This document shows, one piece after another, positions 13,793-60,860 of a stretch of DNA of 64,000 nucleotides. The stretch covers positions 95,147,001 to 95,211,000 of the forward strand of contig CM074861.1 in NCBI GenBank assembly GCA_037501455.1, read 5' to 3'. Each line of letters opens with the position of its first letter. The first letter of the stretch is position 1. Below the pieces are notes generated by a model. It searched no databases, was not told the origin of the DNA, and saw nothing but the letters and a program-made list of their open reading frames with translations. Made by a program: the position numbers and the translations under genes. The DNA is from Lantana camara. Its lineage: Eukaryota > Streptophyta > Magnoliopsida > Lamiales > Verbenaceae.

Positions 13793-15315
13793 CACACATT
13801 TTAGCCAAAATTCACATAAGGGTTGTAAGGGTTCTATGTAACTTAAATTTAAACCTCATTTATAGAGACAAAAAGAGAACAAGGATACAACCACGGTGCA
13901 TGCTCCTCGTCGGTAGAAAGCTGGTCTATGCAAGAAAGATAAATGTATGTGAGGTACGACTCTTATGAACAAATTAAGATGAACGGCGTAATCATAAAGC
14001 AATATGTCGTGCATTCACAATCATGAAATGTCATGAGCATATTCATGCATAAAATGAGCATATAAGAGCATATATTAATCATTTAGAGGCTTAGAAATGG
14101 AAATGAAGGAACTAAGTTTGTGCAGAAAATCACAAACACCCTCTGGAGCATGGGAACGACCGTTTTAGGTTTCAATGTAAAATGGGAAGGGCCGTTCCCG
14201 GCTCCCCAAACTGGCCCCGCGCGTCTGTAAAAAAATTACATTTTTGGCGCTTGGGAACGGTTGTTTTGGCCGTAGGCCAAAACTGGGAAGGGCCGTTCCC
14301 AATCTCACTCGCTAGATCTTTCAATGGGTGGGAACGGCCATTTTGGGAAATTAAAGAAAACTAGAAGGCCCGTTCCCGCTATTCAAAAATTTCAAAAACA
14401 GAACAGAACAAGGGAGTCCTTTGAACCAAAACCAAAACTCACAAATAACTAATAATTCAACTTCCAAATACATGTAAAACATGAAGTAGCAAGCTTAGGT
14501 ACTCAAAATGTAATAAAAACCATCAATATCACTTAAATCATGCCTTGATTATCATGAAATTCCAATATCAAACCCATATCCCAACTCATCAATCAACCCC
14601 ATAAAATTCATGATTCAAGCATCAAATTCAAGTTTGAAACCTAGAATCATGTTTCCACCAACTAAAACACATATTATCCAATCAAAATCATAACCCTAGC
14701 TTCACTTATCAATTCAAGAATTCACATATATAACTTGAAGGAAAATGAAATGGAAAGTGATGAAGTTATGAAGATGATTGAAGCTTCGAAGTCCAAAATT
14801 TTCTGGAAATTTAGCTTGAAATTGATGAAATCTTTTCTTGCTTCCTCTTGGAGATGAACCGAGAGAAATGGAAGGAAAGTTTGTATGCGTATGAAATGTA
14901 TGAATGTTGTGGAAGAGATGCCTTATGTGATTCATCCATTTAAAAGGAAAAATGTATATAAATTACAATTAAGCCTCTCAACTTAGTATTTATGCAATTA
15001 GCTTCTAACTTATGAGAAATGATCACTTTGGTCCAAAGAAGTTTTCATGCAATTGAGTTCTCCAATTAAAAGAAATGATCAATTAAGGACACATAAGCAA
15101 CTAAGTCATGTTCGGTAATTAATTCACATCTCAATCGAATTCAATTATGTAATAACTCTCAAGTTGATATGAATTTCATATAAACACTTAGAAATATAAT
15201 TCATATAATGTCATGAAGTGTAAAATTTAATACGTGAAAGAATAAAATAAATCTTATCTCTCGAAACTCACACGTGGCGTGCTTACCTGAACATCTGGAA
15301 AAGTGGGGGGTTACA
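13544..15315 (-). mobile_element. 5' part of a gypsy LTR with palindrome cluster
   Basis: Ends GGGGGGTTACA at 15315; in sense it begins TGTAACCCCCC and has CACGCCACGTGTGAG shortly inside, as in sibling LTRs. The left side is cut by the CACTA end at 13543. It contains a (TA)n tract at 13761-13787 and six GGGAACGGCCGTTCCC-like units (14151-14378). Open frames in it follow repeats and are not coding. Confidence 0.75.
14151..14378 (-). repeat. palindrome cluster A (GGGAACGGCCGTTCCC type)
   Basis: Six full or half-decayed units at 14151, 14183, 14252, 14284, 14329 and 14364, for example TGGGAAGGGCCGTTCCCG. They are 30-70 bp apart and 0.94-1.16 kb from the LTR start. Confidence 0.85.
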
Positions 15316-16303
15316 GACAGTGTCAAGAAATGGAAATATTTTCTTGGTAAGACTAATACTAAGAGTAATTGTATTCACCTATCCAAATAAAATTGTCTTA
15401 AATCCCTGTATCACTAGTGGTAAAAATAGTGCTCAAATTATCGTCATTGATACACATTTAGTATCACTCTTAAGTGACATTGTTGGGGTAAGGGGTATAT
15501 GTGTTATTAACTGTAAAATAGAGAACTTAGCTTCTAATGTTAAATCTTGCCACATTCTAGTTATTTGGTGACAAACTAACTATATATGATGCACAGACAC
15601 TTCAACAAATTTCATTTGGTGTGCTATGTCGTCTACAATACTCGTATCGGCAACCATCTCGGCCATTTGTCATGTTGAAAATTTAAGAAACTACCAGTAT
15701 CACCATATTTGTATCATCATCCTGTCACTTGGTTTCCCTAAGTGCTACAAGTCTATGTATTTCAGGAGAAGTTTCACGGACTCAGGAGGTTTCTCTGGAG
15801 AATGTGAATGTTTTTGCCCAATCTCTAACATTTAGAGTCCTAAAGGGAGGTCCTCTGGACATTTACATATCATTTGAGTACACACTTGAAGTTCGTGAGG
15901 ATTCAGTGAAATGGAGTATTATGTATGAGACATTAGTCGGGGACAACAGTCCTGATGACTACCTTTAGCTCATGATTAAAACAACTACTCGTGCGGATGC
16001 TTACATAACTCCTCCTAAGTCCTAAGTGAAGTTATATGCGTGCCATAAATGATAAAACCAAGCTTGTTTAAAATGTGTTTAATATGATGGGCTGTTTGTG
16101 TGCTTGCTTTCAGTTTGTGTGTTTGCTTTCAGTTTCAGTTGGCAATAAGATGTATGTGTGCTTGCTTTCAGTTGGCAATTGGCACAACTGCTCTATGTTT
16201 GTTTATTAATGCAGATAATTCTACTTATATATCATATAGTCTGATCCTTACAAATTTTCCGACATAACTAATCAATTGTAAAAAGCAATAAAAATGAGTA
16301 ATA
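15316..16303. other. unassigned sequence between LTR fragment and copia element
   Basis: Several open frames of 60-80 codons exist, but none has a recognisable domain. Near 16095-16185 the motif TTGCTTTCAGTT is repeated three times with TGTGTG spacers. It may be an old transposon interior or single-copy DNA. Confidence 0.4.
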
Positions 16304-16731
16304 TAGGGAAAATCCCTAAAACTTAATAAACATGTCGAAATCATCGAGAATACACAAGCGGAAGCGTACCTTGATCCATAGCAATTCGGATCTTAATTTG
16401 GCAATCCAAGGTTGTGATCTTCTAAGCCTTGATATGCCGTCTATTTAATTCTCTCAGGGATGGGGCAAAAAAGAAAACAAAGAACGTATCTGACTTAGGG
16501 ACCCCAACTCTAATATATAACCAATAGTAGGGCACGTTAATTTTGGGTCCATCAATCATAATTAAGTGTCCACGGGTTTCTACACATAAAAGACCCATAC
16601 TTCAACCAATATTTGTATAAGCCCATATCATTAACTAAATCTGAAGTAGATCACTCAATTGGGCTCGTATTATGAGATAGCCTACATATAATTAATTAAA
16701 TATGTGAGACCACTAAATAGATAATCCAACA
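16304..16731 (-). mobile_element. copia 3' LTR
   Basis: Shares GGAAAATCCCTAAA, CAAGCGGAAGCG and most of ~380 bp with the sequence at 21767-22150. In sense it starts TGTTGGATTATC (end at 16731). About 428 bp long. It is the downstream LTR of the minus-strand copia element. Confidence 0.8.
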
Positions 16732-17194
16732 ATCAACCACTTGGTCCAAATATGGTTCCAAATAATTGTACATAGTTTTAAGCCTTAGTGCGCGCAACCT
16801 TATGCTATCTCAACGTTCGAAATATTCCCAAACAATCTGGTCCATCAATTATGTTATTATAGGATAAAAGCAGCTTTCGTTACACAATTCGTAACTAAAC
16901 CGAACAATAGTCACAATACTAATACAATTAATGACACAAATAAAAATATAGCATGTATTATGGAAATTACATGTAATGTGATCTTAGTCATACCCATTTC
17001 CAACTGGTCCTACCTTATGACTCAAAGAGTCCCAAAGCACTTTCAAATACTTAATGCAAAACCGCAATAGAAAGCCAAAATCCTTATTATCAGAGTATTC
17101 AATAAAATATAACTTTATTTATCTCATAAACCTCAGTATGTACAGAACATATAACATATCAATAAGCAAAACAATAAATCACAAACGCACACTA
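16732..17194 (-). other. copia 3' non-coding region
   Basis: Lies between the copia stop codon (17197-17195) and its 3' LTR. No coding signal. Length is about 460 bp. Confidence 0.6.
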
Positions 17195-17264
17195 TTAAGA
17201 CATGTCATCTAGTTTGATGACACTCATATGAGCCACATGTTCATGAAACACTTTAGGTATGAAT

Positions 17265-20217
17265 TGTGACGCCCCGTCTCTTCGACATTCCAGGTACGGC
17301 GTCACGAGAGAGTTTAATTCAGTATTTTGTGAATTATGTGATTAAGCATGCTTACGTGTCAACGTGAGAATTACTTTAATTACGTGTGCTTTAGAATTTA
17401 ATTAAATTGTACTTGGACTCAATTGTCCAATATTTGCAATTTAGGGACCTAATTGTAATTAGGACGTTTGAGCCTTCGTGGGTAATTGTGTTCGGGAATT
17501 CGAATTCGAATTCCGATCCTATCATTGAGTTCGTTTCGATGATTCGGAGTCAATGAATTAACTTTTTAATTTCTAAAGCCCTTTTAGTAGCCCTACTGTT
17601 TTAAATCCGATCCGTTTGGGCCGGATACCGTTTGACCCTACCCGTTTTAACCGACCCGTTTGTCCAGCCCTAAAAACGGCCAAGCCTTTTTCTCTCTCCC
17701 TCTTGGATCGATCAGCACAAGTAAGGAAAGGTGAAGAAGATATTTCTTCCCCTATTTTTGGCCACCAAGCCTTGAGCTCGGGTTTGCAAGATCCAACCGT
17801 CCGATCAACGACCCAAGGTAAGATTTGTGACCCTTCCATTACGTGCTTTAATTTAATCTCTCTTTCGTGCCTTGGATATGTGCGTACGTGCTTGGTTGGG
17901 GATGATGATGAATAGTAGTGGGTCGGGGGTTTGGCGTGTTTAAGCTCGTTTCTTGAGCTCTTAAGTGTAATTATGTGTTCTATATATTATATATGCTTTA
18001 TTGGTTTAATTTTGCATGATTTGGTTGTTGGTTGTGGCTGTGTGTGTGTGGTGGTGTTGGCTCCCGATGCTATTGCTACTTCTGCTCTGTTTTTTCGAGC
18101 AGGACGGGCTAGAATGGCCGTTCCCGTTTTGGCCTTGGGGCCGGAACGACCCTTCCCATCCGTGTATGTGAACGACCGTTCCCGTTTTGTTCTTCGGGCC
18201 GGAACGGCCCTTCCGTGCAGTGCTCGTGAGAAGGGCCCTTCCTGTTTTGCCTTGTGTTTGGGAACGGCCCTTCCCGTGGTCCAGTGAGTTGGTTTGGGTT
18301 TTTATGCTTTTAATTGATTTCTTTTGGCTCCTATTAATTTATATCTTAATTGTATTGCATCTTTCGATATGAATTCGCATTATATGCTATGTTAGGTGCA
18401 TGAATTGTAATTTAATATTAAAGAATAAGTATTTTATGCATGATAGTTATGCCCTCTTCATTCCAAACTTTAGTATGCTTCGTTAATTGTCTGAAATGTA
18501 TTCGGTGTGCAATTATATGATCTTAAATGAATGATTTATGCATGTATACGTGATCCATGACTTTATGCCAATCATAAGCATATGTCGTGCGTCTATGTGA
18601 TTCATTCTTGAGTCTAAGTCCTGTTTTTGTGTGCAGTTTGTTCAGGTACACCCGGGGTGGTATTTTGTCAGCCGTATTGATTCCGGGGTGGATCAAACGT
18701 TGTGTCTTTAGCCTCTTCGGTGTCAGGTGAGGTTAGGATATAGTTACACCTTAATGCAATGTGCTCAGTTTTAATGTGTGTGGTTTAATAAGCCTTATAT
18801 GTACGTAAATAAGTGTGAAATAGGTATTTGTTGAATATGTTTCAAGTTGGCAAGTATGTTACGCAATGTACAAGCCTATGTATGCTTGATTTGGAATGAT
18901 TTGTTATATTTTGCCACGCGAAGCTATGCTTCTAACCGTATACTTCTCATGAGCCAAGTTTGGCAAGTACCGAGTTTGATTGAAACGGAAAGTGGTATGT
19001 ATATGTATATATGTATAAGTTATGTCTGTCTATCTCTGTTGTAGCGGGTTATGATATGTTATGTTTATGATGGGCCCCGGAGCTATGGGTAAGGAGCCCT
19101 CGGGACGGTATAGGGCCGTCGAGATTAAGTCTGTGCATAGTCTCCATATGTCTGCAGAGGATCACCCCTAAACTCACCGGGAGGTTTGGTGAGGGAAGGA
19201 ATCCTAAGGGTTGAGTACTCGCAAGGCACTCCCCTCGTTTGTATGGATGGTTTGGGCGTATACACCCTTCCATCACCCGGAGTTGAGGATGATATGATAT
19301 GATATGTATGTAAGTTTTCTGTTTTGATTCTGATATGTTATGTAATGAGGAGATTGGGGGAGTCGGAGCTCGTACCCGCCGAGTTCTATATGATATGTAT
19401 GTTATGTTAACGTTTATGAAACGGGGATAGATTCTAAGTTAAATTAAAAAGGGAATTTTTATAAGATAAGCTAAGTTCTGAATATGGTAAGAATTAATAA
19501 GCTTTGCTAAGTTTGTTCGGTAAGTTATTTTGGTTTGTTTGATTTTGCTAAAGTAAGTCCTATATGTATATATATCACGGGAAATGATTTAGTGTGCAAA
19601 AACTATCCCCGCGTTCATGAACACTATGAGTTTGATAAGTGCTTTGCTCTTATATATATAGTGCGAGTGAATTAACCCCTCACTCAGTCGAGTTAAGACT
19701 GACCCCTCCCCTTTTACTTTTAGTTTGCAGGTTTTGCTTGGAGTTCGTGCTAGGCGGAGTGTGTTGGTCTTTTGTTGTTGTTTTCGAGTCTTTGTCTAGT
19801 AGGTTGTCTTGCATTCGTATTTCTTTCATTCGACTCATGTATAAGATATATTTGGGTATGTTATTTGGAATTTAAATATGAAGTGATATGTATATTTCGG
19901 GACAGGTTAGGACAGGTTTGCTTGGTTTAGTTGAACCCGTTGGATTTATGATTATTGTTTGATATTCGGGATTAGGTATTTATGCTAGTTGAACCCGTCA
20001 ACTGCTTGTGAATGTTTTGATTATTGCATGGCTTGTTCGCTTCGGCATTCTTATTGTGGTTTGAGTTTTGCTTTCAGGGTCTAAGTTCCGCCTAGCTTAG
20101 GTGTGAGTCTGTCAGTCTCCCGTTCGCCACTGTTTGGTTCATGTACGGACTTTCCATTTCGTATGTGGATCGGACTTTGGTGCGGGGGATGTGGTGACCC
20201 ACCGTGCGGGTGCTACA
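17265..20217 (+). mobile_element. solo gypsy LTR inserted in copia RNase H
   Basis: Begins TGTGACGCCCCG and ends GTGCTACA, 2953 bp, flanked by TGAAT at 17260-17264 and 20218-20222. Removing it and one TGAAT restores the copia reading frame. Inside are an AAG|GTAAG donor at 17818, palindrome cluster B (18113-18276), TCAGTC/GACTGA at 19684-19702, a TTTGCAG|GT acceptor at 19730, and the LTR-end hairpin TACG/CGTA at 20144-20163. No internal retroelement sequence is left, as expected after LTR-LTR recombination. Confidence 0.95.
18113..18276 (+). repeat. palindrome cluster B (GGGAACGGCCGTTCCC type)
   Basis: Six units: AATGGCCGTTCCCG (18113), GGAACGACCCTTCCC (18143), GAACGACCGTTCCCG (18170), GGAACGGCCCTTCC (18201), GAAGGGCCCTTCC (18230) and GGGAACGGCCCTTCCC (18260). 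They start about 295 bp downstream of the predicted donor. Confidence 0.9.
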
Positions 20218-21764: not shown

Positions 21765-21766
21765 CT

Positions 21767-24594: not shown

Positions 24595-24784
24595 TCCAAG
24601 AAACACTGAAATACATGCAATTTTTAGTCCATGCATGCAAGTGCAATTAATTCAATCAAAATTCGAAATCTAGAGCACACAAACACGTAAACAATGTATA
24701 TGTAACACACCGAAAAGTTATTCCTAAAGCCGAACGACTTAACTGACTCAACATGACACGAGAGCCCGGGTTTTGCAACCCTAA

Positions 24785-24794
24785 GCTCTGATAT
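24785..24794 (-). other. primer-binding site, split by a solo LTR (inner half)
   Basis: GCTCTGATAT here and GATACCAC at 28101-28108 are the two halves of GCTCTGATACCAC, the plus-strand form of the PBS. The 3306-bp LTR lies between them. Confidence 0.85.
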
Positions 24795-27700
24795 TGTAAC
24801 ACCCGGGACGATAGGCGCCACATTCCCTGCACCATAAGTCTAATCCACGTATGAAATGGATAGTCCATACATGAATCGGACTCATAGCGAACGGGTGACA
24901 ATTAAAAACAACCTGGCTAGACGGAACTAACCCTGACCAATTAATCAACAACATTCAATAAATCGGTGCGGAAGCAATAACATTAACATGAATGAATTCC
25001 ATTAATGGCTATAAGCCCAACAATTTCATAAACATAATTAAATCCATCATGCAACCTAACAACGGGTTCAACTAGACATGCAATCTATCCCGAATCAATA
25101 TTCAAAATCCATAAATCATAAATAATGTGTTGGCTCACAGGTCTATTTAAATACGAGACGTGATATAATTAAAACATAATAATATGGAATGAGACTTAAG
25201 TGTACACGTGTGACTCGATCAAAATGCTATGACTTGGCTTCCGCCTAGCAAACCTACAAGAACTGAGAAGTGGGGAAAAGAGGGGTCAGTCTCTAGTAGA
25301 CTGAGTGAGCAGGAGCTGTACGTAAATATAAAAACAAGCACATGCAAGTCATACATCCCAAGCAAGGTTTTATTAAAGTTAGTTCCCACGAAGGGCATGA
25401 AATCCTTTACCAATGCTCAGTCTTTACGACTAATTCATATTAAATTCGTTAAGTTCGTAATGCATGAAAAATCGTTATGGCTCGACGAGTGAGCGTGCGT
25501 TATCTCCAACCAAACTCCGACCGTGTACAATGAACATGATTTAATACTTTGAATACGTGATCATACAATACATAATAATACATGCGGAATATAAAACATA
25601 CTCGTTCGTTCGTTACATTCATTGCATTCATTGACATTGTGCAAATACGTTTCCAACCTTCTTCCTCCAGAATGGTCGGGTCTGCAGACCCAACCATTTA
25701 ACGTTAACGTGTCGAGACGGGGGCTCATGACTCCTACCCGCTCCTTTCAAGTGGATTAACCACCGGCTCAAGAATATCCCGCCTTCCTGCCACCAAAGTC
25801 GCGCAAGGATAATCTGAAAGAGTACTATGTGATAAAGGATTGCCCGACGGCCCGATACCGGACCGGTATCCAATACCACATTTCCCCGGGCCCAATAATG
25901 TGAACGTGAAGTGCGTTATCTCGCCAAAACATTTCAATTTGTTAAAACATTTCAATACATTTCGTTACAATTAATTTATTCCTTGAAAATATTCACTCGA
26001 TAAGAATTTACTCGATGACTTAACGTTGAAATCAACTTATATATATAATTTAGATTTTTGGCCAAAACTTATCATATAAGGGTTATAGGATTGAATACAT
26101 AACTAGAACGAAAACTCCCTCACCTGGAATAAACTGAGACAAGAAACATGATTGATACGGGTGCCTATTCAATCCGGAAGTCTCTGCCCTGGAGATGAAC
26201 TGTACAGAGAAAGTAACAATGTGTACTCGTGAGAGGAGACTCAATATGATACCAAATAGGACGCACGACAATGATTATGAGATGGTGTAACGTGTCATGA
26301 GATGATTCAATATGGAATAAAGTATAAGTATGTCATGGAAAGGTGTGGTCATGTTCATATGCTCAATTACTCACAAGGATTCAATTCATATATCAAGCAC
26401 AAATTCAAACAATCAAACTTAAGCAAGTAAAAACTAAAGAGTGTCAAATAAGAGCATAATTATCAATTAATCAAGCATATAACTCATATAAGTTACACAG
26501 GGGAGCCAAGGAAGTGAAAGGAATGCAATATGAGGGGTTTTGGTGAAGTTTCGCAAAAACGGATAATTTTTGGAAATGCGCAAGTTGTGGTAAAATGAGA
26601 ATATCTTGAGTTATAGAAGTTGGAATGGATTTTGGTTTATTTTATATGAAACTAGACACATATACCTTTCCAAGCATATATGGCTCGAATTCTAGTTCCG
26701 AACGAGGAGTAAATGACATAAGTTTGAATTTAGGTGAGTGTAATTTGTCGGGAAAGTGGCGATACCTAAACGAATGGATCATATCTCACAAAATAGAAAT
26801 TATAATGAGGTGATTCCAATTTGAGGTTATTCTAGACTTCAATAGGTTTCTGTGGGTTTAAAAATCAGGTCAATCGGATTTCGTATGAGAGAGAAACGCC
26901 CGTTTCAAAAATGTACTAAAAGCAGAAACGGGTGTGTGAAGCTCCTCGGGTTGATGCAGTAGGTTGCTAAACGGGCGTTTGGTGAATGAACGGGGAGTCC
27001 AAACGCCCGTTTGGGAAGTCACCGGACGAAAAAATAGGGGAAAAATAGGGCAAGGCTCGAAAAATGGCTCCCAAGCCATTCCAACACAAAACCACAACAA
27101 ATAAACACTTCAAAACTAACATATAACATCAATATACATCTAATACTTCAATTACAATTCATAAATCAATCATTTAAATACTTAGATCCATCAAACAAAA
27201 CTCATATAAACCATATCATCCAATAAACCAAATAACCAAAGTGTTCATGCAATAAGTTCAAAGATACACACCTATATGATCACATATTCATGCTCAAGGT
27301 CAAAGAAACTCATCCAAATCACAAAGCCCTAACTATTCAACATAATCCATCACATAATATACCATTACCAACCTTGGGAAGAAAGAAATGGAGGAGATGA
27401 TCTTGATGATGCTAATGTCTCTTGAAATGATCCTTCCTAGCTTATGATCAAAGATGTGATGAAGATGAAGATGAAGATGAGAGTGTAGTGTGTGTGTTAG
27501 AGAAATGATGTGTGTAATTGTGTATCTTGCATATGCTATGTAATGAATATACAATATATGTGTAATATAATTATAGATATAACATATATGTGTATAAAGT
27601 CATAAAGTGTAGATATTATGTATATTATATTATATAATTGATCTTAGTGCTATAATAATATATACATATATAATGAATGTGAGTGTTAGTGAAGGAAGAC

Positions 27701-28100
27701 TTATAGATGTATATATATATAATTGCATGTCTCATGAATAAATATATGAGATAATGAGAATATTAATCTTAGGAATTTAGCTTAAGTATAAAGATATACA
27801 TACATATATATATATAAGAAAATAATATGTTATGAAATGAAAGTGTATGAATTATGCATATGTTAGAAATTAAAATGAAATGAAATGAAATATGTATAAG
27901 TTAAAAGAAAATATGTGAAATGATTATGAATGAATATTTTGAAATACTTATATGTGATGAAGTGGCTTGCGAACAAAATTCATATATTTCACGTAAGTCA
28001 CATAGACATATTACTCAATTAAGCATATAAAGGAATTCTAACTCTCAAAACTCACACGTGTGGTGCGTGTACCTGTACGATGAAAACACGAGGCGTTACA
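24795..28100 (-). mobile_element. solo gypsy LTR inserted in the PBS of the gag element
   Basis: Plus strand TGTAACACCCGG to GAGGCGTTACA, 3306 bp. Flanks are GATAT (24790-24794) and GATAC (28101-28105), a 5-bp duplication with one C-to-T change. Features in sense: donor AAG|GTTGG at 27372, palindrome cluster C, TCAGTC/GACTGA at 25286-25304, acceptor TTGTAG|GT at 25254, and hairpin GTATG/CATAC at 24849-24870. Confidence 0.92.
26893..27014 (-). repeat. palindrome cluster C (AAACGCCCGTTT type)
   Basis: GAAACGCCCGTTTC (26893), a decayed GAAACGGGTGTG (26934), AAACGGGCGTTT (26969) and CAAACGCCCGTTTG (27000), inside the solo LTR 24795-28100 and about 360 bp downstream of its predicted donor. Confidence 0.85.
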
Positions 28101-29712: not shown

Positions 29713-29743
<31 letters not shown>

Positions 29744-29942
29744 CTCATACGTACACATATGACATAGGTTACATGCATGCATTCTTACATTTTAAATATA
29801 AATATATACTCATATACCATGCATGCAAAATATATACGTACCTATGTAAATTACATGCACAACACCAATTAATCCATGCATAAATATATATATAATTAGT
29901 CATGCACACCCAATATTACATGTATGCATACAATTTAGCTAA

Positions 29943-29977
<35 letters not shown>

Positions 29978-36921: not shown

Positions 36922-37047
36922 AAATCCACCGGGGTGGATTTCTGCTTTGAAAATAATCCACCGGGGTGGATTTGAGGCAGAGAGCTATCTGCCCTAAATC
37001 CATGGGGGTGGATTCCCCCTTTGGAAAAAATCCACCGAGGTGGTTTT
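36922..37047 (+). repeat. palindrome cluster E (AATCCACCGGGGTGGATT type)
   Basis: Four units at 36922, 36955, 36996 and 37028, e.g. AAATCCACCGGGGTGGATTT; the third and fourth carry one to three changes. Spacing is 32-41 bp. A 100-codon open frame on the minus strand is a by-product of the repeats. Confidence 0.95.
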
Positions 37048-47866: not shown

Positions 47867-47925
47867 ATCTCTCCCCCTTAAAAAGAATCCGTCCTCGGAT
47901 TCACTGCACGCCTAAAACAATCAAT

Positions 47926-48113
47926 GAGAGATTCCCCGTCTCTCACAAACAACAAAGAGAGAGCCCCGTCTTTCGAGCAACAATGAGAGAACCCCGTCTC
48001 CCCAACAACAATGAGAGAACCCCGTCTCTGGCAAGCAAAGAGAGCACCCCGTCTCTCGAACAAAAATAAGAGAATCCCCGTCTCTTACAAACAACGAGAA
48101 CACCCCGTCTCTC
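47926..48113 (-). repeat. array of seven GAGAGA-CGGGG-TCTCTC hairpins
   Basis: In sense, each ~28-bp unit is a small stem such as GAGAGACGGGGAATCTCTC or AAGAGACGGGGATTCTCTT, separated by TTGTTG-rich spacers. The GA and AA stem variants change on both arms. It lies about 45 bp upstream of the PPT in element sense. Confidence 0.8.
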
Positions 48114-50921
48114 AACCAAAATAAAGAAAGGGAGTCTCCAATACCCCCCAAGAAACACACGCAAAACCAATTTTAAAATCACGCAAGCCACCCGAAGGCA
48201 AGTAACAGATATCACTCACGTTAAGCATCAATTACTCCAAGTAATTTAACTTAAGAAGAAATCGGAGAACATAACAAAGAACTTATTGAAATTAAATTTG
48301 CATGAATGTATGTATCATGGATGCTATAATTACCGTTCACCGTAGTTGCGAAATTTAAAATTATGAGTTGTCGTTGTCCAGTGTAGCATTTGTCCTGAAG
48401 ATAACTCAGTGCTCAGCTTGTCTTTAACCTCTTTAGGATACCCCTAACAATTAATAGATCCGCTAAGGATTTTATTCTTTAACCCCTTTCCGACTTGTAC
48501 CACATCCATTCTTCTTCGATCCCTCACCATTTTCCATAATCTTCATTCAACCAACCAACTCTTTTGATTAACCGAGCTTGACCTCTGGTACACCCTTAGA
48601 CCATCCGTCTCGAAGTTAGGTCCATAGCTACTATCTTACCCCTATCGGAGTTTAGCATATCCTCGAGGGTAACTACTCTCGACAACCTTGATAGTTCAAT
48701 CCCGACCTTGAGATATTTATCCTTATGGTCTCTCTCAACACGAATCGTTTCCCATCTTCCGTTCTCGTTGTTCGTTCATTCTCTTTGACCCTCTTAAGGT
48801 TGTATTCGATATCTGGCACCATCCCATTATATGATAACTGGATTCAATCTTCTCTTGTTAATTCTGACTTAGGAGTTCACAGAAACTTCCTTATAATTCC
48901 ATCACCTCCAGATCGGACTTCCATACGTAGAAATGTTCAATGAACTATTTCCCTTATATCTCGTAAAATCTTCACCCGAATTTAGCAACGTAGATTTTCT
49001 CTTATCAACTTAACCATTACAGTCGTCTTATTCATTTCCAGTTGCCACCATTCGGACTTCCAGATCCTCCTTAATTTGTACCCCCGTTGTCGCTACTAAC
49101 ATATTTCTTTGATCCCCACTTCCATCTTCCAATTTATCTCTCGGTCGTAATTTCCCCCTTAAATTTTTTGCCCTTACATGTCAAACTCCATTAATCCTTC
49201 TTTCACTGAAATTCTTAATAAGCCACTTCCATTAGGGAGGGTTTTAAGCACAATGACGACCCAAAGGTTTCGCCTTTCCATTTCTCTTCTAATCCTCTTG
49301 AGGTGCGGGACTTCTTCATCTATTCGAATTCCCGTTTCATCAACCTACCCCTTACTTGAAATTCTTTATTTCCCGAAGTCATCTTCATCGAATTCGAAAG
49401 TGGCTTGGTTAAGTAATACTTGATAGGTGAGGTCGATGAGCTTCCTATCAAATAAACACTAAAATGCATGTCGGGTAAAGATGACGATGTACATGGCACA
49501 CTTGCAACGAAGTAAGAGGCAACACATTAAAGCAATGAAATCAAACAGAAATGCGCGAACAAACATAAGGCCAGAAAAATAAATAATTAGTGCGAGGTAT
49601 GATGCACGTGCTATAAATGTTTTGGAACCTGTCACCAATGTGGTAAGTTGTTAGCTCCGTCTCTTTTCCTCGGTCCTCCAATCCCGATTTTACTTTGACT
49701 TGGTGATTATTCCTTGCCTTTCCCACGGTCTTCGAGATTTCCATGAATCTTTGTAAATCAACTTGTATCTTCCACTATCTGAGATTGCAATTTCTTGATT
49801 CCTAATTCTTCCACGTCCAAGAAGTTAGCATTCAAACTTCTCCTCGAAATCCGACCTCTACTTCTAGTCGTCACCTCGATCAAGAATCGCGTGCATGTCC
49901 TTTATGAGGTTAACTCACCTCCAATTGCTTATACTTGAACGCAGGATTTCCTTGCAAAGAGTCTTTGCCTTTCTTTATTGTTCCCCATTTGTTACTCCAT
50001 ATCTTCCAATTCAATCTCACAACACGACAATTCAGCTTGGATTTGGAAAAACGAACCCAAATCCCGACCTCAATATCACCACCTTCCCTGAATTTGGATT
50101 ACCCAGTTACTTACCTCTCTCTACTCCCTTCCAGACTCGCTTTCTATCTTAATCGAAATCTAGAGCACCCAAATCCAAATTTTCCCGGTCTTAACTTCGA
50201 CAAACTCGATTTCTAATCACTAGGCTTAGTCAGAAATCCTTCTTTGTCAACCCTTGGTTCATAACTCCTATCGAACCCATCTTACCTCGACTCCTCTTAA
50301 TTGTTGATACCACTCCGATGATCCGAATCTGGGACCAAAATACCTTCAAGGTTTTGTTCACTTCATTCCTTAAGTTAAACGATCCCGTTGAATCCGATTA
50401 TCATAGTTTATGTTGAAGTGCTGCATATATCAATCTTCAGAGTTAGCAATATTCCCCGAACAACTCTTATCTCATCAAATGCCTCTTTAGCCTCGCATCT
50501 CCAAAACGTTCCTCCATTCCGAATCCTAACCCTTGAACTCTAGCTCCATCTAGAAAGCCTCACATCTCGAATTCTCTACATTCTTCCCGAGTGTATCCTT
50601 CCTATCTTCCATGCCTCGGAAAAGCTTGCAACCGATCGTCCTTGTCAAAGAACCTGGCCATGGTTTGATATTATCTTTATAACCTATAAATCATAACTTA
50701 CTTCGAGAGTATATGCATGCGATTAGTGCATGCCCATGACATATATTCAATGCTAAAAACAAGGATCCATATATTAATGCAGCAGATAGTTCAACAAAAT
50801 TAAAAGAAAAGCCAAATTTCACGTTCAAGATCGATGCAATGCGCACATTGTCATATAGTTCCTAAGCCGCACGACCTAGACTGACTCAATCACGACACGA
50901 GAACATCGGTTTTGCAACCGG

Positions 50922-50933: not shown

Positions 50934-52889
50934 CTTAAGGATGTAGCACCCCGCACGTGAGGCGCCACATCCCCCGCACTATGGCTCAACCCGAGTAACG
51001 AAATGGTAAAATCCACACCCGTATCAAACCATAGCGAACGGGAGACAAACAGAAAAATCCTCCTAAGCTAGGCGGAACCTGGACCCTGTAATTATAACTA
51101 ATAGAAAAGACATAATGCAACGGAGAACTAAATTCAAACACAAGCATTGGCCACGACCTGCAGAAATTAAACAAACAAACCGCACGCATACTTGGGCTCT
51201 TCAGGCCTCTTTTAAAATTCATAATCAACCCCGACGAGGGCAATTCAATAGCACATATACATAGTCTCAAGTTCATAATCTTACAAAGTTAAACCACGCA
51301 CAATTTAAATACATAAGTGAATGCAGAGACACTTCTAACGTAACTTGACCGACTCAAACCCAACACAACTCCACCTAGCTCGAAACTCCAAAGCCAAACC
51401 TGCACACTAAAGTGTTGGGGAGGGAGAGGGTCAGTCTCTAGAAGACTGAGTGAGCAGGAGCAATATACATATATATAAAAACATGCACATGCAAGTCGTA
51501 AATCCCGAGCAAGGTTTTATTTAAAATTAGTTCCCAAAAGGGCAAGAGAAGGATTAAGCAATGCTCAGATTTTATGACTAATCATATTAATTCATTACAT
51601 TCATAATTTATACATAAACATAAAGGCTCGGCGAGTGAGCGTGCATCATCTCCAACCAAACTCCGACTGTGTACGAAACATATCACTGATATATTATGTA
51701 GCGCCCCCACTTTGCTGGTAGAGAGCGGCGCCCCAACCCCCGCACTGAAGCACCCCTCAAGTAATGGTGTGAGCCACTACTCAAGAAATACCCCAGCGAA
51801 CGGCATATCCATTAACGATTAACAAATAGTGTTTAACTATGTGGCTTAAGCAGCGAAAAATCAGAGTATTTTAAAACTTTTCAAAACATGTGCGTGATGG
51901 CATATAAACAAGCAAGTACTGATCGTTAAGCAGAAGAGACTATTAACATTACTATATCAACATTATCACAGAAGCACATGATAGCAATTATAGCAGTATC
52001 CAAGTAGCAGAAGGATTATTACAAAAGCATAAGGTAAAGTATCAATGCAGCCATATAACATATGCAGGACACAAAATAGATTAATAAAGTAAAGTCCTGA
52101 CTCAAACAAAATGAACACTCTAGAGCTTCAAGATACCTCTAGACTGCGGCTGCAAGACCTGAAACCCTGAGGCCAGAAAACAGGTAGAGGTATTAGTCAA
52201 AGTGACTAAGTGAGGGATATCTTTAAAAGAAAGTACTTAAAGTAAACGTTTGAAGTGAAGTTCATAAGGTAAAACCTTTAATGCAAAGTTTTAATGAAGA
52301 ACTTAAGAATAAGTTGAAGTGATAAAACCCTTTGATGCAATGCTATAAGAAATGAGAGTTTTCAAAACACTTTCATGAATGCTGTCACACGCGCACACAT
52401 ATGCTATGATTTGGTTCATATGATTTTCATAAAACGGGATAAGGGTAGGGAACAACTTTGCAAGATATGAACCAACTTTATGAAAACATTGATGCCCGTA
52501 AGCTAGGCTTCTCCATCCTTACTCCAGAAAACATGACCATTAATAGGGTGTCGGACCGAGATCAACAACACCCTAATACATACACACATGCACCATCCTC
52601 CACCAAGTTTCACTTCGGGGAGCGACCCCTAGGTGACCATTAACCATTGATTTGGGAATAGATTTGCAGTCCATTCCCGACAATTGTCCTGACTTAACCA
52701 AACCTCCTGATTAAAGTCGGTATCAATCGCCTAGTGTGGCGGTCGGTATTAGTGATGTCGTTGGCGCTCACCTCCCGAGCATCACCTCTACACATAACCG
52801 TCGGGCCCATACCATTAACCATTGATTGCTTGCACCATTGATGACATCCAGAATAAATCCGAATGTATGAACCATTGAACATATGCATT

Positions 52890-53008
52890 GAACCATTGAT
52901 GCAATACTTTGAAAACATTGAACCATTGATGCATTACTTTGAAAACATGAACCATTGATGCATTACTTTGAAAACATTGAACCATTGATGCATTACTTTG
53001 AAAACATG
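52890..53008. repeat. 29-30 bp minisatellite, four copies
   Basis: Units start GAACCATTGATGCA at 52890, 52920, 52949 and 52979, each ending in TTTGAAAACAT. Confidence 0.9.
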
Positions 53009-53565
53009 TGCCTTTGATCAAGAAATATGGATAGGTCTGGGTTCTTTGAAGAATCATCCCTTATAAAGGATATTTCAAAACAAGAATGTAAAGCACTAGG
53101 CTTAGAGTTTCAAAACGATGGAATCATTAAGTATTCATGGTTCCAGTTGAAAACATTTATAACCTCACCTATTAGTAACAGTAGGTAGGATAGATTATGC
53201 AGTGCCCTGGGGATTCCAGTGCTCAACCTTAACTCCTGTAAGTGTGTACTAAGGTGAGGTAAGACACACTTCTATCACGATGCACATAAACATATAAAAC
53301 AAGTACAGAACATGTAATGACAAGAGAGTAATACCATTTAAGGTATTAGAGAAGGATAACACATAAAGGAATCCTTAAAGTGAGTTATCATTAACGTGGG
53401 ACTATGATCTTACTATAATCGATTAGGAATTAATCAAATTATGAATTCTAAACGTAAACCTTAGGTTATAAAACAAGTCCTCGAAAGAAAACACATTTTA
53501 GACCCCGGATTTGAAAACCCTAAGTGCGAATGTCTGTTAAGAAAGCACAAGTTTTAATTCACTGT

Positions 53566-53640
53566 TACTATTCAAAAGTACTATTCACAGTTACTATTCT
53601 AGATTACTATTCACGGATTACTATTCACAGGTTACTATTC
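53566..53640. repeat. TACTATTC array, six copies
   Basis: TACTATTC starts at 53566, 53579, 53592, 53605, 53619 and 53633, a 13-14 bp period, with CACAG or similar spacers. It occupies the part of the LTR where other families carry palindromes. Confidence 0.9.
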
Positions 53641-56600
53641 GCTTGTCGGGTCAAAGGGTCGGGTCAAACCCACACACTAAACACACACTCATGCACACAC
53701 ACGAACACACTCACACACACACAGCATGCACACATACACACACCCTAATTCAATTATGATCTTGATTATAACCTATAGTTTCAAGTTCATGTTATAATAA
53801 GCAAGTGTGATCTAGGTTAAAGGCATAACCTATGGTTAAGAGGTCTAATTAATGCATAACATCAAGTTATGAAACACTATTCTATCTTAGGTTATAACAT
53901 GTGACACTATCAAAGTGTATAACATATGATCAAGGCACTATTCCATTAATCCATATCATATCATAAGCTCAAGTCATAACATATGAGTCATGTAACATTG
54001 TAACAATGTAATAACATATCATAGACATAAGTCATAGCACATCAAGACCATTAATCATGTAATATTTATCAATTGAGACCATATAGTAACATGTAACAAG
54101 TTATGATATAATTGATCATAGGTTACTATTCCGTTGCATAAAATGCTTGAACATAAATTAAATATCATAATCATGCATCAATTATCATCACATAATAGCT
54201 CCATAACATGATCATACCATATACTAAAGCAATTCATAACATTTCACAGCATATACTAAACAATTAAATCATAATTCACTACTAACAAACATATCATAAA
54301 AACTATATAATAAATGCATAAAATAAAATCCTATATGGCTTAGGGAAGACCCTAAGACCCAACCTAAACACAATATAAACATACCATAACATAAAAACAT
54401 AAACTAAACTAAGATATAACATAAAAACATAACATAAAATAAAACAACATCTAACCTAGCAAGGGGGGGAGCCTCACGGCAAGAGGGGGAGAGAGGGAGG
54501 AAGAAAGGGAGTTTTTAACACAACATATGAGCAAGGAATTAAATGGCATGAGGGGGGTATTTATAGGTGTTGGGAAGCCCCTCACCTTGGAAATAAAATG
54601 TAAGGAAGGGTAGGAGAGCAAAATGGTAAAACTTCTCTTGGAAGCTAACTTTGTTCTTGAAGCTAAAATGGGACTGCTGGGGGTATTTCTGTAATTTCGT
54701 CCCCCAAGACTCAAGGATAAGTGGCTGGAAGTTTAACCATTCCAACGGCAAGAAAATTAGCTTCGAAACGCATATTCATTCGTCGAAATCGGATTTACCG
54801 TTTGAAAGATAAATTAGTTTTAATGAATAAAAGTTTTGAGCTCGAAACTCGACATGAGTGAAAAACGACTTTCCAGAATGATTTTCAAGTCCGGATTGTT
54901 TCCAAAATTCAAGAAATAAATCGAGAAGCGTTTTGAATCCAATATCGACTATAAAACGTTTTAGCGATAGAAAGTTGAAAACGTAGAATGAATAGTGAAT
55001 TCTTACGTACAAACGTACGCTTCAAAATTTCAAGCTAGGGTTTGAATCAAGAGTTGTAAAACATTTCAAAAATCTTGAAATAGATCAAGTAGTGCAAATC
55101 CTAAGAGAAAACATTTTCCGAATGAAAACCGTTCGTAGAAGAAATAGTGAACTAGGGTTTTCGTAAACCTTTTCAAATAAAACAAAGCTCGGAATAGATT
55201 TTCAAGTCAAGAATGATTTCAATAGACTCGTTTCGACTCAAGGATCGATTTGACTGTAAACTTGGGTAGGAAAGATATCAGAATCAAAAGCTCATTTTCA
55301 GATGAATAGTAACTTTTGGTCGGTAAGTTCCCAAAATGCCCTTATGGTTCAAGAAAGGTTTCCGGAACATGGAAAACAAGTTCAAAGGATAGGAAAACAT
55401 GTGATATGAACCTATAGGGTTCCATTGAAGCATTGGGTAATATAGGCTTGGGAAATGAATAGTAAACTGTATCGAAGGTCAAGAATTCCCCCTAAAAACA
55501 TGTCAGATCACATATGAGCACGAAGTTCATGTAAGAATGCAATGCATGAAGGTTTATAAACTTGGATCACGGTCTATAAACGCTTTACCATTGCCCTTAG
55601 TTTACCGTTTTCAACTAGGCCCTGTTTTGGGCTGTTACATATTAATTAGGTGATCATGCAATATATATCATAATACACACAGGTCTTATATCATATCATA
55701 AAACATATTCGTTTGGGCAATCCGTGCCCCGGCCTTCCCGCATGGTGCATATCAATCATACATAAACATAAACATAATCATAAAAATCAGTTCCAACCTT
55801 CTTCCTCTGGGCGGTGGACGGGTTTGCAAGGCCCAACCACCTAAACATATCATGATGGTTGTGAGGTTCATGAGTCCTCAAAGCCCGGTTAGCGTTTCCT
55901 TGTCAAAAACTCCTTGACGAGGTCCGTCTCGTCATTAAACATAAAGGACTCAGCACACGGGATCACCGTCGGCCCTTGCCTCCCCGGATAGCCACATGTA
56001 CTGAATTCCTGGGCCCGTGAACGTAACATACATGCATAGACTCGCCGAAACATTTCAATGCATAAGAAACATAACATAATTCATAATTCACTTGAAAAAG
56101 GGTTTATTCGATCATAAATTACTCGAGGACTCTACTTTGAAAATAACATATATATATATTTATAAGGTTTTGGCCAAAGCTTTTCACATAAGGATTGTAG
56201 GGTTTATTATATAACTAAAACAAAAACACCCTCACCTGGATCATGGCGATACAAGGATTCGAGTACCGAGTGCCTAGTTGATCAAGATTTCTCCACCCTG
56301 GAGATAAACTGTACAAAGGACAACGTAATACGTTCGTGAGACTCAAGACTCCAAATGAACCATATATGATGCACGTCATGCGATGAACATGTTATGAATG
56401 CATAAAAGATAATGTTATGTAAGGAACATGTTCATGTGCACAATTAATGCATTTAAATCATATAAACAAGCCATTCATTCGTTCAAGAAAGCGTTCATCA
56501 TCATTTAAGTCATGAATTTCATATTTCATATCAAATCAATTCAAGGAATTCAAATAACGATTAAAGCACGTACTAAACACTTTTACAATTAGGAAATAGG

Positions 56601-57315
56601 CAATTAAAACATTCAAGTCATGATCGAAATTAATTAACGTGAAATAGATAACAATTAAATTCTATAATTAAAGAAATTAAACAATAGTTAATACATAAAA
56701 TAATCATGCATTTAAATGATATATAATCAAATTAATATCTAAATACATATACATATTTAGATACATATATACCTACGTGCATGCATTTACCATAATATAT
56801 ATTAAATATATACTACACATATATAGATATATACGTAACACCCAATTCAAACAAGCATAATAAATATTAAGTACACATTTTCATGCAAAATACATCTATA
56901 ATATAATTTATGCACGCGTATACTATAAATATATAAATACATATTATACGTACTCATGCATGTAAAATATATATACATATTTATATATTACATGCAACAT
57001 ACACTCTCCCAGTTCATGCATGCACAGCAAACACACACACAAATTCCATGCATGCAATCACTTCCCAAACAACAGCAGCCTTGTCTGCATAAAATTCACA
57101 CACACACCCCTGCACAGCGAAGAACAGCAGCAGCACCATCAAGTCCCTCCCAAGCATACAAATACGCAGCAACAACACTCCAAATTAAGCAAACACATAC
57201 ACACAGCAACACAAGGAAGTAGGAGTAGCAACCCAGCAACAAGAAAGGAAAGGAAAAGAAAGAAGAAAGAAGCAGCAGAAGAAAGAAGAAGAAGAAGAAG
57301 AACGAAGAACAGAGG

Positions 57316-57440
57316 CTGTACCCGCCCAGGTAGCCAACCCTTCACCAATCTCCCCGGTCGGGTAGGAGGTACAGAAAGTCTCTGTAACAGGAGTCCCCGG
57401 CCGGGTACTATCCAAGTGAAAACTCTCCCCACCCGGGGAG
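57316..57440 (-). repeat. palindrome cluster D' (CCCGGCCGGG type)
   Basis: CTGTACCCGCCCAGGTAG (57316), CCCCGGTCGGGTAG (57351), GTCCCCGGCCGGGTAC (57393) and CTCTCCCCACCCGGGGAG (57423). Same family as cluster D but each unit has drifted by one or more bases. Confidence 0.85.
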
Positions 57441-59013
57441 TGTGTTACAGAAGCAAACCAGTAGCAACAGTAGGCGGCAACGAAACAGGGCAAGAAAAGA
57501 GGTGGAAAAAGGGCAGACCAAACACCCACAAAACTTACCCAATTCAAGCCAACACAATAAGGTCTGAAGAGGCTACGAACGTACAGCAACAAGACCTGGA
57601 ATAACCTCAACAAACGCAACAACCCACAAGGAAAAGACAGCAGTTCGTGCGAGGGGAAAAATAGGGCAACCGGGAAGGAACAAAGCAAGGTAATCCAGCA
57701 TCAAACAACCAACATTCTTACAGAAATTATGGTAAAAAGAAACAACATTTAACACCAAAATGAATTACAGGAGCTAGCAGCAAATCGGTACGTAAAGGAA
57801 GGGAAAATTCAGTTTGAAGTTCAACCCTTTCATAACAATCCATAAATGATATCTCACCAAACTCTTAACCATCAATTAATACAAGCATACTCTGTCTTAA
57901 ATGAAGTAATAGAATCTTATATATCATCAAAACAAGTCAGAGATCAAAGGAAACAAGAAATCATCAAATCACTCCAAAACCTAACTATTCATTCACATCT
58001 TCAAAATCCCACGAAATCTGACTCAAATTTGGACATGAATAGGTCAAAATGACCAGAGAAGCATGTATAACATAATCCTAACTCACCTTGTTGATTGGAT
58101 GAAAGTTGATTGAGATTTGAGCTCCAAAACCTCAAGGATTTGCACAATTACGGGAAAACTGGACTGCAGAAGCTTTTGGATGAATTTCTGGTATGTATGA
58201 GGATTGGCTCGAGATGGGGCAGGTAAGGAATGGTAAAGAGTTTAACTAGGGTTAAAATGCCACCAACCATAGATAATTTGGTTAACTTTTGATCAAGTTA
58301 TGGCCATTTTAGCGAAGGGTGGTCATTTTGGTGCCGTTTTGTTTTCCGGTTGGATTTCGGAGGTTCAAATATTTTGAAAAAATATAAGGCTAAGTTTATT
58401 AAACTCAAATCTTCGATCCGAGTTCAACGAGTTTGACGGAACTCGAATCCGAGTTCCCGAGCTCAAGATATCATGTACGGAACCAAGGGTGCGCTAATTG
58501 CTCGTTAGCCCCCGATTTGGTTCCACGATTCAAATTAAATTCGTTAGCATGTCAAACGAGTTCAAAAACATAAATCGAGCATATAGGCATGTTCATAAAA
58601 CATATATTTATGACATACTAAATTTCCACGACATTTCGATATCATTTCACAGAAGAACGAAGTACAAATAAACATTCATGCACATATTCTTAATAATTCT
58701 ATACATTATAAATTAAAACTAAAATCTAAATTCTATTTTAAATATAATTCGGGTCAATGGATTTGAATAAATTAATTAATGTGATTGGAGCATGATTAAT
58801 TAATAAAACACCTAATTAACAATTTATAATAATTACTAAATTAACGAAATAATTAAATTGAAATAAAATGAAAATAAAATAAGATAATACAATTTATAAT
58901 AAAATTAAATATAAAACACTTATAAACAATTAATCACATAATTAAATAATTTAGTTGCGAAATTTATAAACAAATACGACACATAAGTTTAAATGAAAAA
59001 CCGGGACGTTACA

Positions 59014-59702
59014 TTCTCTCCCGCTTAAAAAGAATCCGTCCTCGGATTCACTGCACGCCTAAAACAATCAATGAGAGATTCCCCGTCTCTCACAAACAAC
59101 AAAGAGAGAGCCCCGTCTTTCGAGCAACAATGAGAGAACCCCGTCTCTGGCAAGCAAAGAGAGCACCCCGTATCTCGAACAAAAATAAGAGAATCCCCAT
59201 CTCTTACAAACAACGAGAGCACCCCGTCTCTCAACCAAAATAAAGAAAGGGAGTCTCCAATACCCCCCAAGAAACACACGCAAAACCAAATTTAAAATCA
59301 CGCAAGCCACCCCAAGGCAAGTAACAGATATCACTCACGTTAAGCATCAATTACTTCAAGTAATTTAACTTAAGAAGAAATCGAAGAACATAACAAAGAA
59401 CTTATTGAAATTAAATTTGCAGGAATGTATGTATCATGGATGCTATAATTACCGTTCACCGTAGTTGTGAAATTTAAAATTATGAGTTATCGTTGTCCAG
59501 TGTAGCATTTTTCCTGAAGATAACTCAGTGCTCAGCTTGTCTTTAACCTCTTCAGGATAACCCGAACAATTAATAGATCCGCTAAGGATTTTATTCTTTA
59601 ACCCCTTTCTGACTTGTACCACATCCATTCTTCTTCGATCCCGCACCATTTTCCATAATCTTCATTCAACCAACCAACTCTTTTGATTACCCGAGCTTGA
59701 GC
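59014..59702 (-). mobile_element. 3' end of a second LARD interior (truncated)
   Basis: Copy of 47867-48590: PPT, the GTCCTCGGATTCACTGC stretch and a hairpin array (59073-59232) with six units instead of seven. It stops at 59702, where a plus-strand LTR is inserted. Confidence 0.9.
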
Positions 59703-60661
59703 TGTAACGCCCCAATTTTCGGACAGTCAGGTACGCTCGACACGTGTGGGTTTCGAGCGTTAGGATTTTATTCTATTAATTTCGTTTAATTAATTTATAC
59801 GTGTTATGTTAATTTTATAAATTGTGTTCCAACATGAATACGTGGAAAGTATATGAAAATCCATTTATTTCGAGAATTAGTGTATACATGGAATTTAATT
59901 GTTACATGACTTAATTGTCCAACTTGTATTAATTGCATAATTGCCCTTAATTGCTCATTTATTTCAATTGAGGGACTAAATTGCATGCAAACCTTTTTGG
60001 ACCTAATTGATCATTTCCAAACCTTAGATACTCAATTGCATAACTTATAGAACTTTAGGGATTTGATCATAAATATTATATTTTGGCCAAATATATCGTG
60101 ATATACATTTCTCCCACAATCATCATCTTCATTTCATGCCCATCATCCCAAATTTGCTTCTTGCTCTCACCGAACCACAACTCCAAAGAAGGGAGAAGAG
60201 ATTTCATCCAATCATCCAAGTTTATTCAAGAAATTCCAAGCTTTCAAGCTCAAACGTCCATTTTCATCATCTTTTTCCATTATTTCATTCCAAGGTATAT
60301 TTGATCATTTATATGATTTCTTGATAATTATGCATGAAGCTAGGGTTAGTGTTTAAGCTTGCCAACTTGATTGTTTGATGTTAGGAGTATGACTTCATGC
60401 TTTTAGCTTGAATTTATGTTTGAATTCTTGAAGAATTTGAGGATATATGCTAAACTCAATTATGAGCTTGAAGTGGATGATTTGTGATGATCAAGCAAGA
60501 TTTAAGTGTTTATGTTGGATTTTATTATTTCTTAGGTATGCTAGCATGTTTCCTTCATGATTTATTGCAGCTAAGATTGAATTATATGATTGTTGATGAG
60601 TTTGGCAATCATTTCGTGCCTCCCCTGTTTCATCCCCTGTTCTTCTGCACCTTCTGTGTAA

Positions 60662-60860
60662 CGGGAACGGCCGTTCCCATCCCCTTTGCAATTGGGGAAC
60701 AACCATTCCCATTGTTTGAATAATGTGTCAGGCGACGAGGACGGGAACGCCCGTTCCCACTTTGTCTCACAGACGGGAACGACCGTTCCCATCTTCGGGG
60801 AGCCCGACAGCGGGAACGGCCATTCCCACTTTGAACTGAAACCTGGAACGGCCGTTCCCA
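60662..60860 (+). repeat. palindrome cluster G (GGGAACGGCCGTTCCC type)
   Basis: Six units: CGGGAACGGCCGTTCCCA (60662), GGGGAACAACCATTCCCA (60694), CGGGAACGCCCGTTCCCA (60742), CGGGAACGACCGTTCCCA (60774), CGGGAACGGCCATTCCCA (60811) and TGGAACGGCCGTTCCCA (60844). Most changes fall in the central four bases; the GGGAAC and GTTCCC arms are nearly invariant. Confidence 0.95.

Follow-up and report, generated by a model that had tools for sequence, protein, structure and literature searches.

The analyzed stretch of DNA, a window of 64,000 nt from Lantana camara (GCA_037501455.1, CM074861.1:95,147,001–95,211,000, forward strand), carries long terminal repeats (LTRs) of retrotransposons that harbor clusters of short palindromes; the letters A–H label the eight arrays of this window as well as the LTRs carrying each. 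A first-pass annotation had placed arrays of three to six palindromes at eight sites. All eight arrays are present, each holding four or six units instead (6, 6, 4, 4, 4, 4, 4 and 6 for H, A, G, F, C, D, E and B, 38 in sum), and all units are arranged in doublets of 31–32 bp. The palindromes thus pair about 32 bp apart, largely independent of their own sequence.

Array H (14151–14378, minus strand) consists of three doublets with unit centres at 14159/14191, 14260/14292 and 14337/14369, each 32 bp apart, within an LTR starting at 15315 on the minus strand; its half-sites are GGGAACG and GGGAAGG, several units being asymmetric. The same two half-sites build array A (18109–18276, plus strand; three doublets, 18117/18149, 18175/18207 and 18235/18267, each 32 bp) in LTR A (17265–20217, plus strand), which has the termini TGTGACGCCCCG ... 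CGGGTGCTACA and a conserved CCCCTCACTCAGTC block at 19676. LTR G (24701–28100, minus strand; ends inferred from terminal motifs and homology) contains array G (26891–27014, minus strand) with two doublets of the AAACG-NN-CGTTT type (26899/26931 and 26974/27006, 32 bp), and LTR F (28116–31836, minus strand; ends likewise inferred) contains array F (30144–30270, minus strand) with two 31-bp doublets (30152/30183 and 30228/30259) of ACCCG and CCCCG half-sites. The 3′ part of LTR C (35572–38893, plus strand) matches 31837–32491 at 93.7%, a remnant of its partner LTR with a primer-binding site (PBS) at 32526; its array (36922–37047, plus strand) holds two 32-bp doublets of the ATCCACC-NN-GGTGGAT type (36931/36963 and 37005/37037). 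LTR D (38894–41977, minus strand) carries array D (40592–40725, minus strand), with two 32-bp doublets of the GACACG-NN-CGTGTC type (40600/40632 and 40683/40715). LTR E (50942–59702, minus strand) is split twice, at about 51697–55638 by an insertion and at 59703 by the element to which LTR B belongs; array E (57317–57443, minus strand) has two 32-bp doublets (57325/57357 and 57400/57432) with ACCCG and CCCCG half-sites, a weak extra match at 57385 (9/14) being excluded from the unit count. LTR B (59703–62342, plus strand; PBS at 62350) carries array B (60662–60860, plus strand) with three doublets of the GGGAACG-NN-CGTTCCC type (60670/60702, 60750/60782 and 60819/60851, each 32 bp).

The distance from the LTR start to the array is 848 bp for A, 959 bp for B, 1350 bp for C, 1254 bp for D, 1567 bp for F and 1086 bp for G, and by subtraction 937 bp for H. 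For E it is at least 2.26 kb, only a lower bound because LTR E is interrupted at 59703. The claim of a fixed place in the LTR is refuted by this range of 848–1567 bp across seven LTRs, and the place is similar only. The partner copy of LTR E (45192–48584, compared with 50942–59703) lacks a 1.4-kb segment (57011–58454) containing array E. An array of a different kind is also found in LTR E and its partner, namely 28-bp tandem repeats with GAGAGA...TCTCTC arms (47916–48113, seven copies; 59063–59232, six copies), and the 3′ half of LTR B has a 103-bp tandem repeat of 2.9 copies (61325–61626).

Each palindromic unit consists of two inverted 7-bp half-sites flanking a free 2-bp centre. Among convergent half-sites at most 14 bp apart, the gap was 2 bp in 54/61 cases for GGAACG, 49/50 for GACACG and 18/19 for AAACG, each locus having been fetched by one exact unit and thus contributing at least one gap-2 unit by construction; ATCCAC half-sites show a gap of 4 in 59/59, equivalent to the same centre. 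The two centre bases vary between GC, AC/GT and GG/CC. The half-sites seen are GGGAACG, GGGAAGG, GGACACG/TGACACG, CCAAACG, GTACCCG/CTCCCCG and ATCCACC, besides GGGTAACG in L016 (L numbers denote loci fetched from the genome), and in most of these types CG adjoins the centre.

The excess of palindromes over dinucleotide shuffles could be confirmed: a strict scan detected 37 GC-rich palindromes in the whole window and 5–15 across 12 shuffles. In the same scan, shuffles contained at most two palindromes per 250 bp, and four of the eight arrays reach 3–4. We then counted exact copies of four palindrome types, leaving out the CCCGGCCGGG type, over the 1.27-Gb genome with the same pattern read backwards as control. 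GGGAACGGCCGTTCCC has 15,128 copies, CCAAACGCCCGTTTGG 867+925, TGGACACGGCCGTGTCCA 292 and AATCCACCGGGGTGGATT 708+678, with zero copies of the reversed control in each case. In viral_contigs, used as a chance control, the palindrome occurs in 68 stretches, in 67 as a single copy and in one as two copies 181 bp apart; a protein search of viral_contigs returned one weak locus only.

Calling units at a relaxed threshold of at least 9/14 half-site bases, a score attained by 0.33% of the non-array window positions tested, all 38 array units of the window are paired into 19 doublets, 17 with a centre-to-centre distance of 32 bp and two of 31 bp. The distance between doublets varies from 26 to 69 bp in the eight arrays. 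A motif-blind scan of the window yielded 10 pairs at 31–33 bp, all inside seven of the eight arrays, with three pairs in the second-ranked distance bin; 30 shuffles gave 0–2 pairs at 31–33 bp. Chance palindromes are ruled out by the window shuffles in density, clustering and 31–33 bp pairing.

The same spacing was found in a set of 66 arrays with at least three units each, comprising seven window arrays that passed the filter and 59 fetched from the genome, with duplicates removed. At least one doublet at 31–33 bp is present in 64 of them, 271 of their 300 units sit in such a doublet, and 136/234 adjacent-unit distances are 31–33 bp (143/246 before duplicate removal). As the loci were fetched via the palindrome, the sample favors arrays and not any spacing. 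The removed places had been read twice (L039/L065, L040/L066, L041/L067, L042/L068 and L044/L069); the half-site-gap, symmetry-P and array-spacing counts as well as the spacer classes were made before the removal of these five. The first three of these analyses left out the second LTRs of pairs, L001–L004, L038 and L043, and the unit-level analysis of centre bases and symmetry only L001–L004. Pairs of the GGAACG type with a gap of 2–32 bp number 16,820 genome-wide (control 0), and among the 50 forward matches listed, 38 are at 31–32 bp, 12 at 42–45 bp and none elsewhere within 16–46 bp. The 16-bp spacers of exact 32-bp doublets, to which the classing was confined (L052, having no orientation, was left out), fall into 21 classes with weak mutual likeness and a weak T-rich tendency; with so many unlike classes, spacer length is held more than spacer sequence. 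A further palindrome type, GGGGTAACG-NN-CGTTACCCC, occurs in L016 (398–453) as two units 34 bp apart, and in L084 palindromes stand in a row of three, 32 and 32 bp apart, rather than in doublets.

At 10.5 bp per helical turn, a doublet's four half-sites are separated by nearly whole turns, which puts them on one face of the helix. GC-rich dyads at helical spacing would also suit nucleosome phasing, cruciform extrusion or another role in chromatin or DNA structure that works without a sequence-specific factor. A purely structural role would not call for the base sequence that is shared and conserved within arrays, and we consider this explanation very improbable.

We assessed conservation in two groups of LTRs. 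In group 2 (L023 compared with L027, L029 and L031), 251/252 half-site positions are identical, beside 87.9% of intra-doublet spacers (without gaps), 65.6% of inter-doublet spacers, 70.1% of the remaining LTR and 89.3% of a TATA-like block. In group 1 (L017 compared with L019, L021 and L025), half-sites are 95.7% identical, intra-doublet spacers 86.8%, inter-doublet spacers 93.2% and the rest 75.9%; L021 lacks one unit. Arm-symmetric changes beyond the core, which the first-pass annotation had noted, are weak. They were detectable for GACACG (P=0.011, 8 classes) and CCCG units (P=0.028, 6 classes), and did not emerge for GGAACG (P=0.72, 12 classes), AAACG (P=0.54, 4 classes) or TAACG (P=0.51, 2 classes). 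These run-P values were computed after collapsing units to independent classes, ATCCACC forming one class with no P. Before the collapse, none of 1000 shuffles reached the outer-arm symmetry of the GACACG units, a figure that is overstated because related units inflate significance; with 8 classes it becomes P=0.011.

Part of this picture could arise without function, if tandem duplication, slippage or template switching made and homogenized the palindromes. Some doublets look duplicated as units, the spacers of array A sharing GTTTTG and array C containing a 74-bp duplication, and the GACACG units have symmetric outer bases. A mutational by-product of this kind is nevertheless very unlikely, as it would not be expected to yield many unlike spacers of equal length, nor variable inter-doublet lengths with half-sites kept while inter-doublet spacers drift, and the asymmetric units in arrays B and H retain the spacing. 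Neutral tandem repeats are rejected by the unlike equal-length spacers and the half-site conservation.

Alternatively, the palindromes might act as hairpins in transcripts, in processing, packaging or as small-RNA templates. Folding the eight array stretches (partial ones of 149–150 nt for A, B and H) gave, for six of them, structures more stable than those of almost every dinucleotide shuffle (z −3.6 to −7.6), and a small-RNA excess at Sirevirus palindromes, as cited in the available parts of PMC10760457 and PMC5311732, is in line with such a role. Any palindrome folds, however, and two of the eight stretches are ordinary (z −0.8 and −1.3). Hairpins require neither a constant 32-bp spacing nor complementary bases kept around a 2-nt centre, nor half-sites conserved beside drifting spacers, and the complementary changes in the outer arms are weak. 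A common RNA fold is rejected, as the eight stretches share none. The hairpin reading offered by the first-pass annotation is therefore not favored, with a fixed 32 bp that it does not predict, no shared fold and z values from −0.8 to −7.6, and we regard it as unlikely.

The palindrome types do not follow the LTR backbones. L005 is about 80% identical to window LTR A on both sides of an unrelated segment with different palindromes, which delimits a swappable cassette around array A (18010–18560, plus strand) devoid of homology to the corresponding L005 stretch; the exchanged segment of L005 shares 75% identity with window LTR G. Three types are found on backbone A, namely GGGAACG/GGGAAGG in window A, CCAAACG in L005–L008 and GGGTAACG in L016 (398–453), where L005–L008 are A-like on both flanks and the 5′ part of L016 is 75% identical to A 1–786. 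Backbone H, too, is found with two types, GGGAACG/GGGAAGG in window H and CCAAACG in L010 and L012, which match it on both sides, and in L009, which matches it on the 3′ side. Backbone D is combined with GACACG in window D and with ATCCACC in L040 and L044, both of which match it on both sides. An F-like 3′ part (71–72%) adjoins GACACG arrays in L015 and L016. All arrays were assigned to backbones by hand from their coordinates. In L017 and its relatives two palindrome types stand side by side in one LTR. Conversely, LTR groups 1 and 2 align at 47–49% only and have a palindrome type in common. The view that the sequence differs between families and not within them is thus wrong, given two types in one LTR and LTRs of about 80% identity with different types, and it is further contradicted by one type common to groups aligning at only 47%; a family-specific motif is rejected. 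Array cassettes are exchanged between LTR backbones, apparently by recombination.

The elements carrying these arrays were characterized from eight fetched LTR pairs, 98.4–99.9% identical, with LTRs of about 2.6–2.7 kb, termini TGTAACRCCCC...GGGTGCTACA and a TGGTATCAGAGC primer site recognizable in all six pairs displayed in this orientation; the L031 LTR was trimmed to its TGTAAC start, and its two copies match across 2,969 bp. The autonomous copy L017/L018 encodes gag, protease, reverse transcriptase, RNase H and integrase in this order, and Retrotrans_gag and RVT_1 matches were obtained in the window. Judged by these features, the carriers are assigned to Ty3/gypsy, not Ty1/copia, and membership in the Sireviruses is rejected. 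By position, the two open reading frames (ORFs) share one frame in L019/L020 and L023/L024, not in L017/L018. A Chromo match in L018 (E 0.0018, 18.6 bits) is below threshold (cut-off 25.1), with none in the L024 piece. Going by LTR length, termini and PBS, we take Tekay/Del, chromovirus-like, to be the probable clade label.

The TATA-like block, with a CCCCTCACTCAGTC-like word after it, is located about 80% into the group LTRs. In six window LTRs (A, B, C, D, E and G) related words occur downstream from the array, at a distance of about 1.0–1.9 kb as calculated by subtraction after removing the insertion in E; none was found for the other two, F and H. If the TATA-like block is a promoter, the arrays lie in the unique 3′ (U3) region. 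Directly 3′ of the block we observed a TCAGTC...GACTGA inverted repeat with a loop of 4 nt in group 1 and 7 nt in group 2 (L017 LTR 2137–2152, L027 LTR 2127–2145, and relatives), in groups that otherwise hardly align. The splice-donor-like word AGGTA (CAGGTA in 11) is found about 26–31 nt into 12 of 15 LTR starts, for example at window 17265, 35572 and 59703 on the plus strand and 41977, 28100 and 15315 on the minus strand, and in L017 and L023; it is missing from the starts of L027, L029 and L031. An exon-like block ending in AG, directly followed by GTGAGGTT, is located about 1.4–1.5 kb into 8/8 group LTRs. The splice-donor-like word could act on transcripts entering the 3′ LTR.

The non-autonomous elements L027/28, L029/30 and L031/32 lack pol matches and contain a conserved ORF of 243–277 aa, counted from the first MSQ (L028:991–1779, L032:957–1778, L029:4950–5840 on the minus strand), with two CCHC zinc knuckles and no Pfam match. 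Its ratio of nonsynonymous to synonymous substitution rates (dN/dS) is 0.32–0.37, and it looks like a mini-Gag under selection. The retention of this ORF, together with sequence-specific arrays that differ between related elements, might suggest that an element or its helper encodes a protein recognizing its own array. Yet the L017/L018 ORFs of at least 150 aa comprise only Gag-Pol domains and the weak chromodomain, in a scan where 10 of 20 ORF pieces had no Pfam match at all and other elements were covered in part. Moreover, a shared trans-acting factor fits better with one type in non-aligning LTR groups and several types per backbone, making an element-encoded recognition protein quite unlikely.

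We consider it probable that the arrays are cis-regulatory docking sites in the U3 region of Ty3/gypsy LTRs for a protein acting as a dimer of dimers, which fits the fixed half-site gap, the near-fixed doublet distance and the frozen half-sites beside drifting inter-doublet spacers. The functional unit would be the doublet, two palindromic sites whose centres are 32 bp, or about three helical turns, from each other, where a protein would dimerize on each palindrome and the two dimers pair on the same helix face, with serial doublets raising occupancy. Half-site sequences would have changed in concert several times with the geometry kept, array cassettes would move among LTR backbones via recombination, and the bound factor may promote or protect LTR transcription. 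As several types occur per backbone and one type on several backbones, a shared trans-acting factor, more likely host-encoded than element-encoded, is the simpler account, and several specificities within one geometry suggest related proteins, with which the arrays may be co-evolving. The dimeric-protein binding sites predicted by the first-pass annotation are in this way well supported by the unit anatomy, namely the fixed 2-bp centre, the 31–32 bp doublets across several sequence types and, in one comparison, half-sites conserved far above the surrounding LTR; the prediction can be narrowed to a protein that acts as a dimer of dimers. We infer the protein binding, the tetramer, the family of related factors and the effect on LTR transcription from the architecture of the DNA.

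Several observations weigh against this docking-site interpretation. Half-sites in arrays H and A are mixed or asymmetric, and two arrays depart from 32 bp, L016 with its sole GGGTAACG pair at 34 bp and L049 with distances of 83 and 84 bp only. Each family contributes many related copies to the fetched loci. The 251/252 identity in group 2 amounts to about a single lineage split, because L027, L029 and L031 are 87–90% alike, and in group 1 conservation or recent sharing extends over the entire segment, so that the evidence for constraint on half-sites is less specific there. The U3 placement is based on the TATA-like block, not on mapped transcripts, and no plant factor with such a geometry was identified, in a search confined to papers on LOB-domain factors that proved uninformative.

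A more general version, which we put forward tentatively and regard as doubtful, would make palindrome, 32 bp, palindrome a common docking architecture of plant gypsy elements, read by a tetrameric protein family of conserved geometry and fast-changing specificity, with LTRs escaping or gaining recognition through cassette swaps. If true, it would constitute a plant LTR counterpart of an arms race pitting sequence-specific factors against transposon control regions. The rule of two dyads at 32 bp with free sequence offers a testable criterion for identifying the factor presumed to read palindromes in plant LTRs, and with the 16,820 GGAACG-type pairs in the genome, a factor binding them could widely affect silencing and expression. 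Beyond this, control-region cassettes are seen to be exchanged between LTR families.

In the literature seen, mostly titles and the beginnings of abstracts, and in the available parts of PMC11963269, PMC10794571, PMC6911290 and PMC11656987, we found no recognizable account of palindrome arrays in gypsy LTRs; the part of PMC6911290 available treats palindromes as insertion targets. VANDAL elements, with whose VANC proteins the first-pass annotation had drawn a parallel for these LTR arrays, are DNA transposons. According to the accessible portion of PMC5735166, VANC-binding motifs are 9 bp long, occur in a single orientation within tandem repeats and are bound by a transposon-encoded protein. 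The arrays described here are like them in being short motifs at high density that change between related elements; in contrast, their units are dyad-symmetric, only C among the eight is called by Tandem Repeats Finder, and the one autonomous element scanned through (L017/L018) yielded only Gag-Pol families. The parallel is therefore only a loose one.

Among known systems, the palindromic repeated motifs (RM) in Sirevirus LTRs come closest. In the portions of PMC2829016 (Bousios et al. 2010) available, the RM of these Ty1/copia elements are described as element-specific palindromes, mostly built on a CGG-CCG core and clustered in the first LTR half, which vary in sequence between elements, begin 200–400 bp after the LTR start, lie close upstream of the TATA box and are proposed to be regulatory. 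They number 3–14 per LTR (Table 3) and at least eight per element, with a CpG island across the cluster, and are reported absent from other copia elements; a word search of the available text for spacing terms found no statement on unit spacing. The 2016 study of Sirevirus palindromes in maize, as cited in the available parts of PMC10760457 and PMC5311732, places clusters in the cis region of the LTR and describes them as rapidly evolving, its cited property being small-RNA targeting and secondary structure. In our arrays, the CGG-CCG core is present where the centre is GC (39/45 GACACG and 20/40 GGAACG units) and is missing in ATCCACC-NN-GGTGGAT and in those AAACG units whose centre is CC or GG, and the observed/expected CpG ratio is 0.40–1.22. 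Counted in LTRs only, internal regions left out, there are 4 or 6 copies per window LTR and up to 10 in L034, overlapping the Sirevirus range per LTR. Common to both, as far as the accessible description goes, are clustered near-identical palindromes in the first LTR half, here upstream of the TATA-like block. Unlike the RM, the arrays reside in gypsy elements, 0.85–1.6 kb into seven window LTRs and about 1.0–1.9 kb upstream of this block, extending palindromic LTR arrays from the Ty1/copia Sireviruses to abundant Ty3/gypsy elements.

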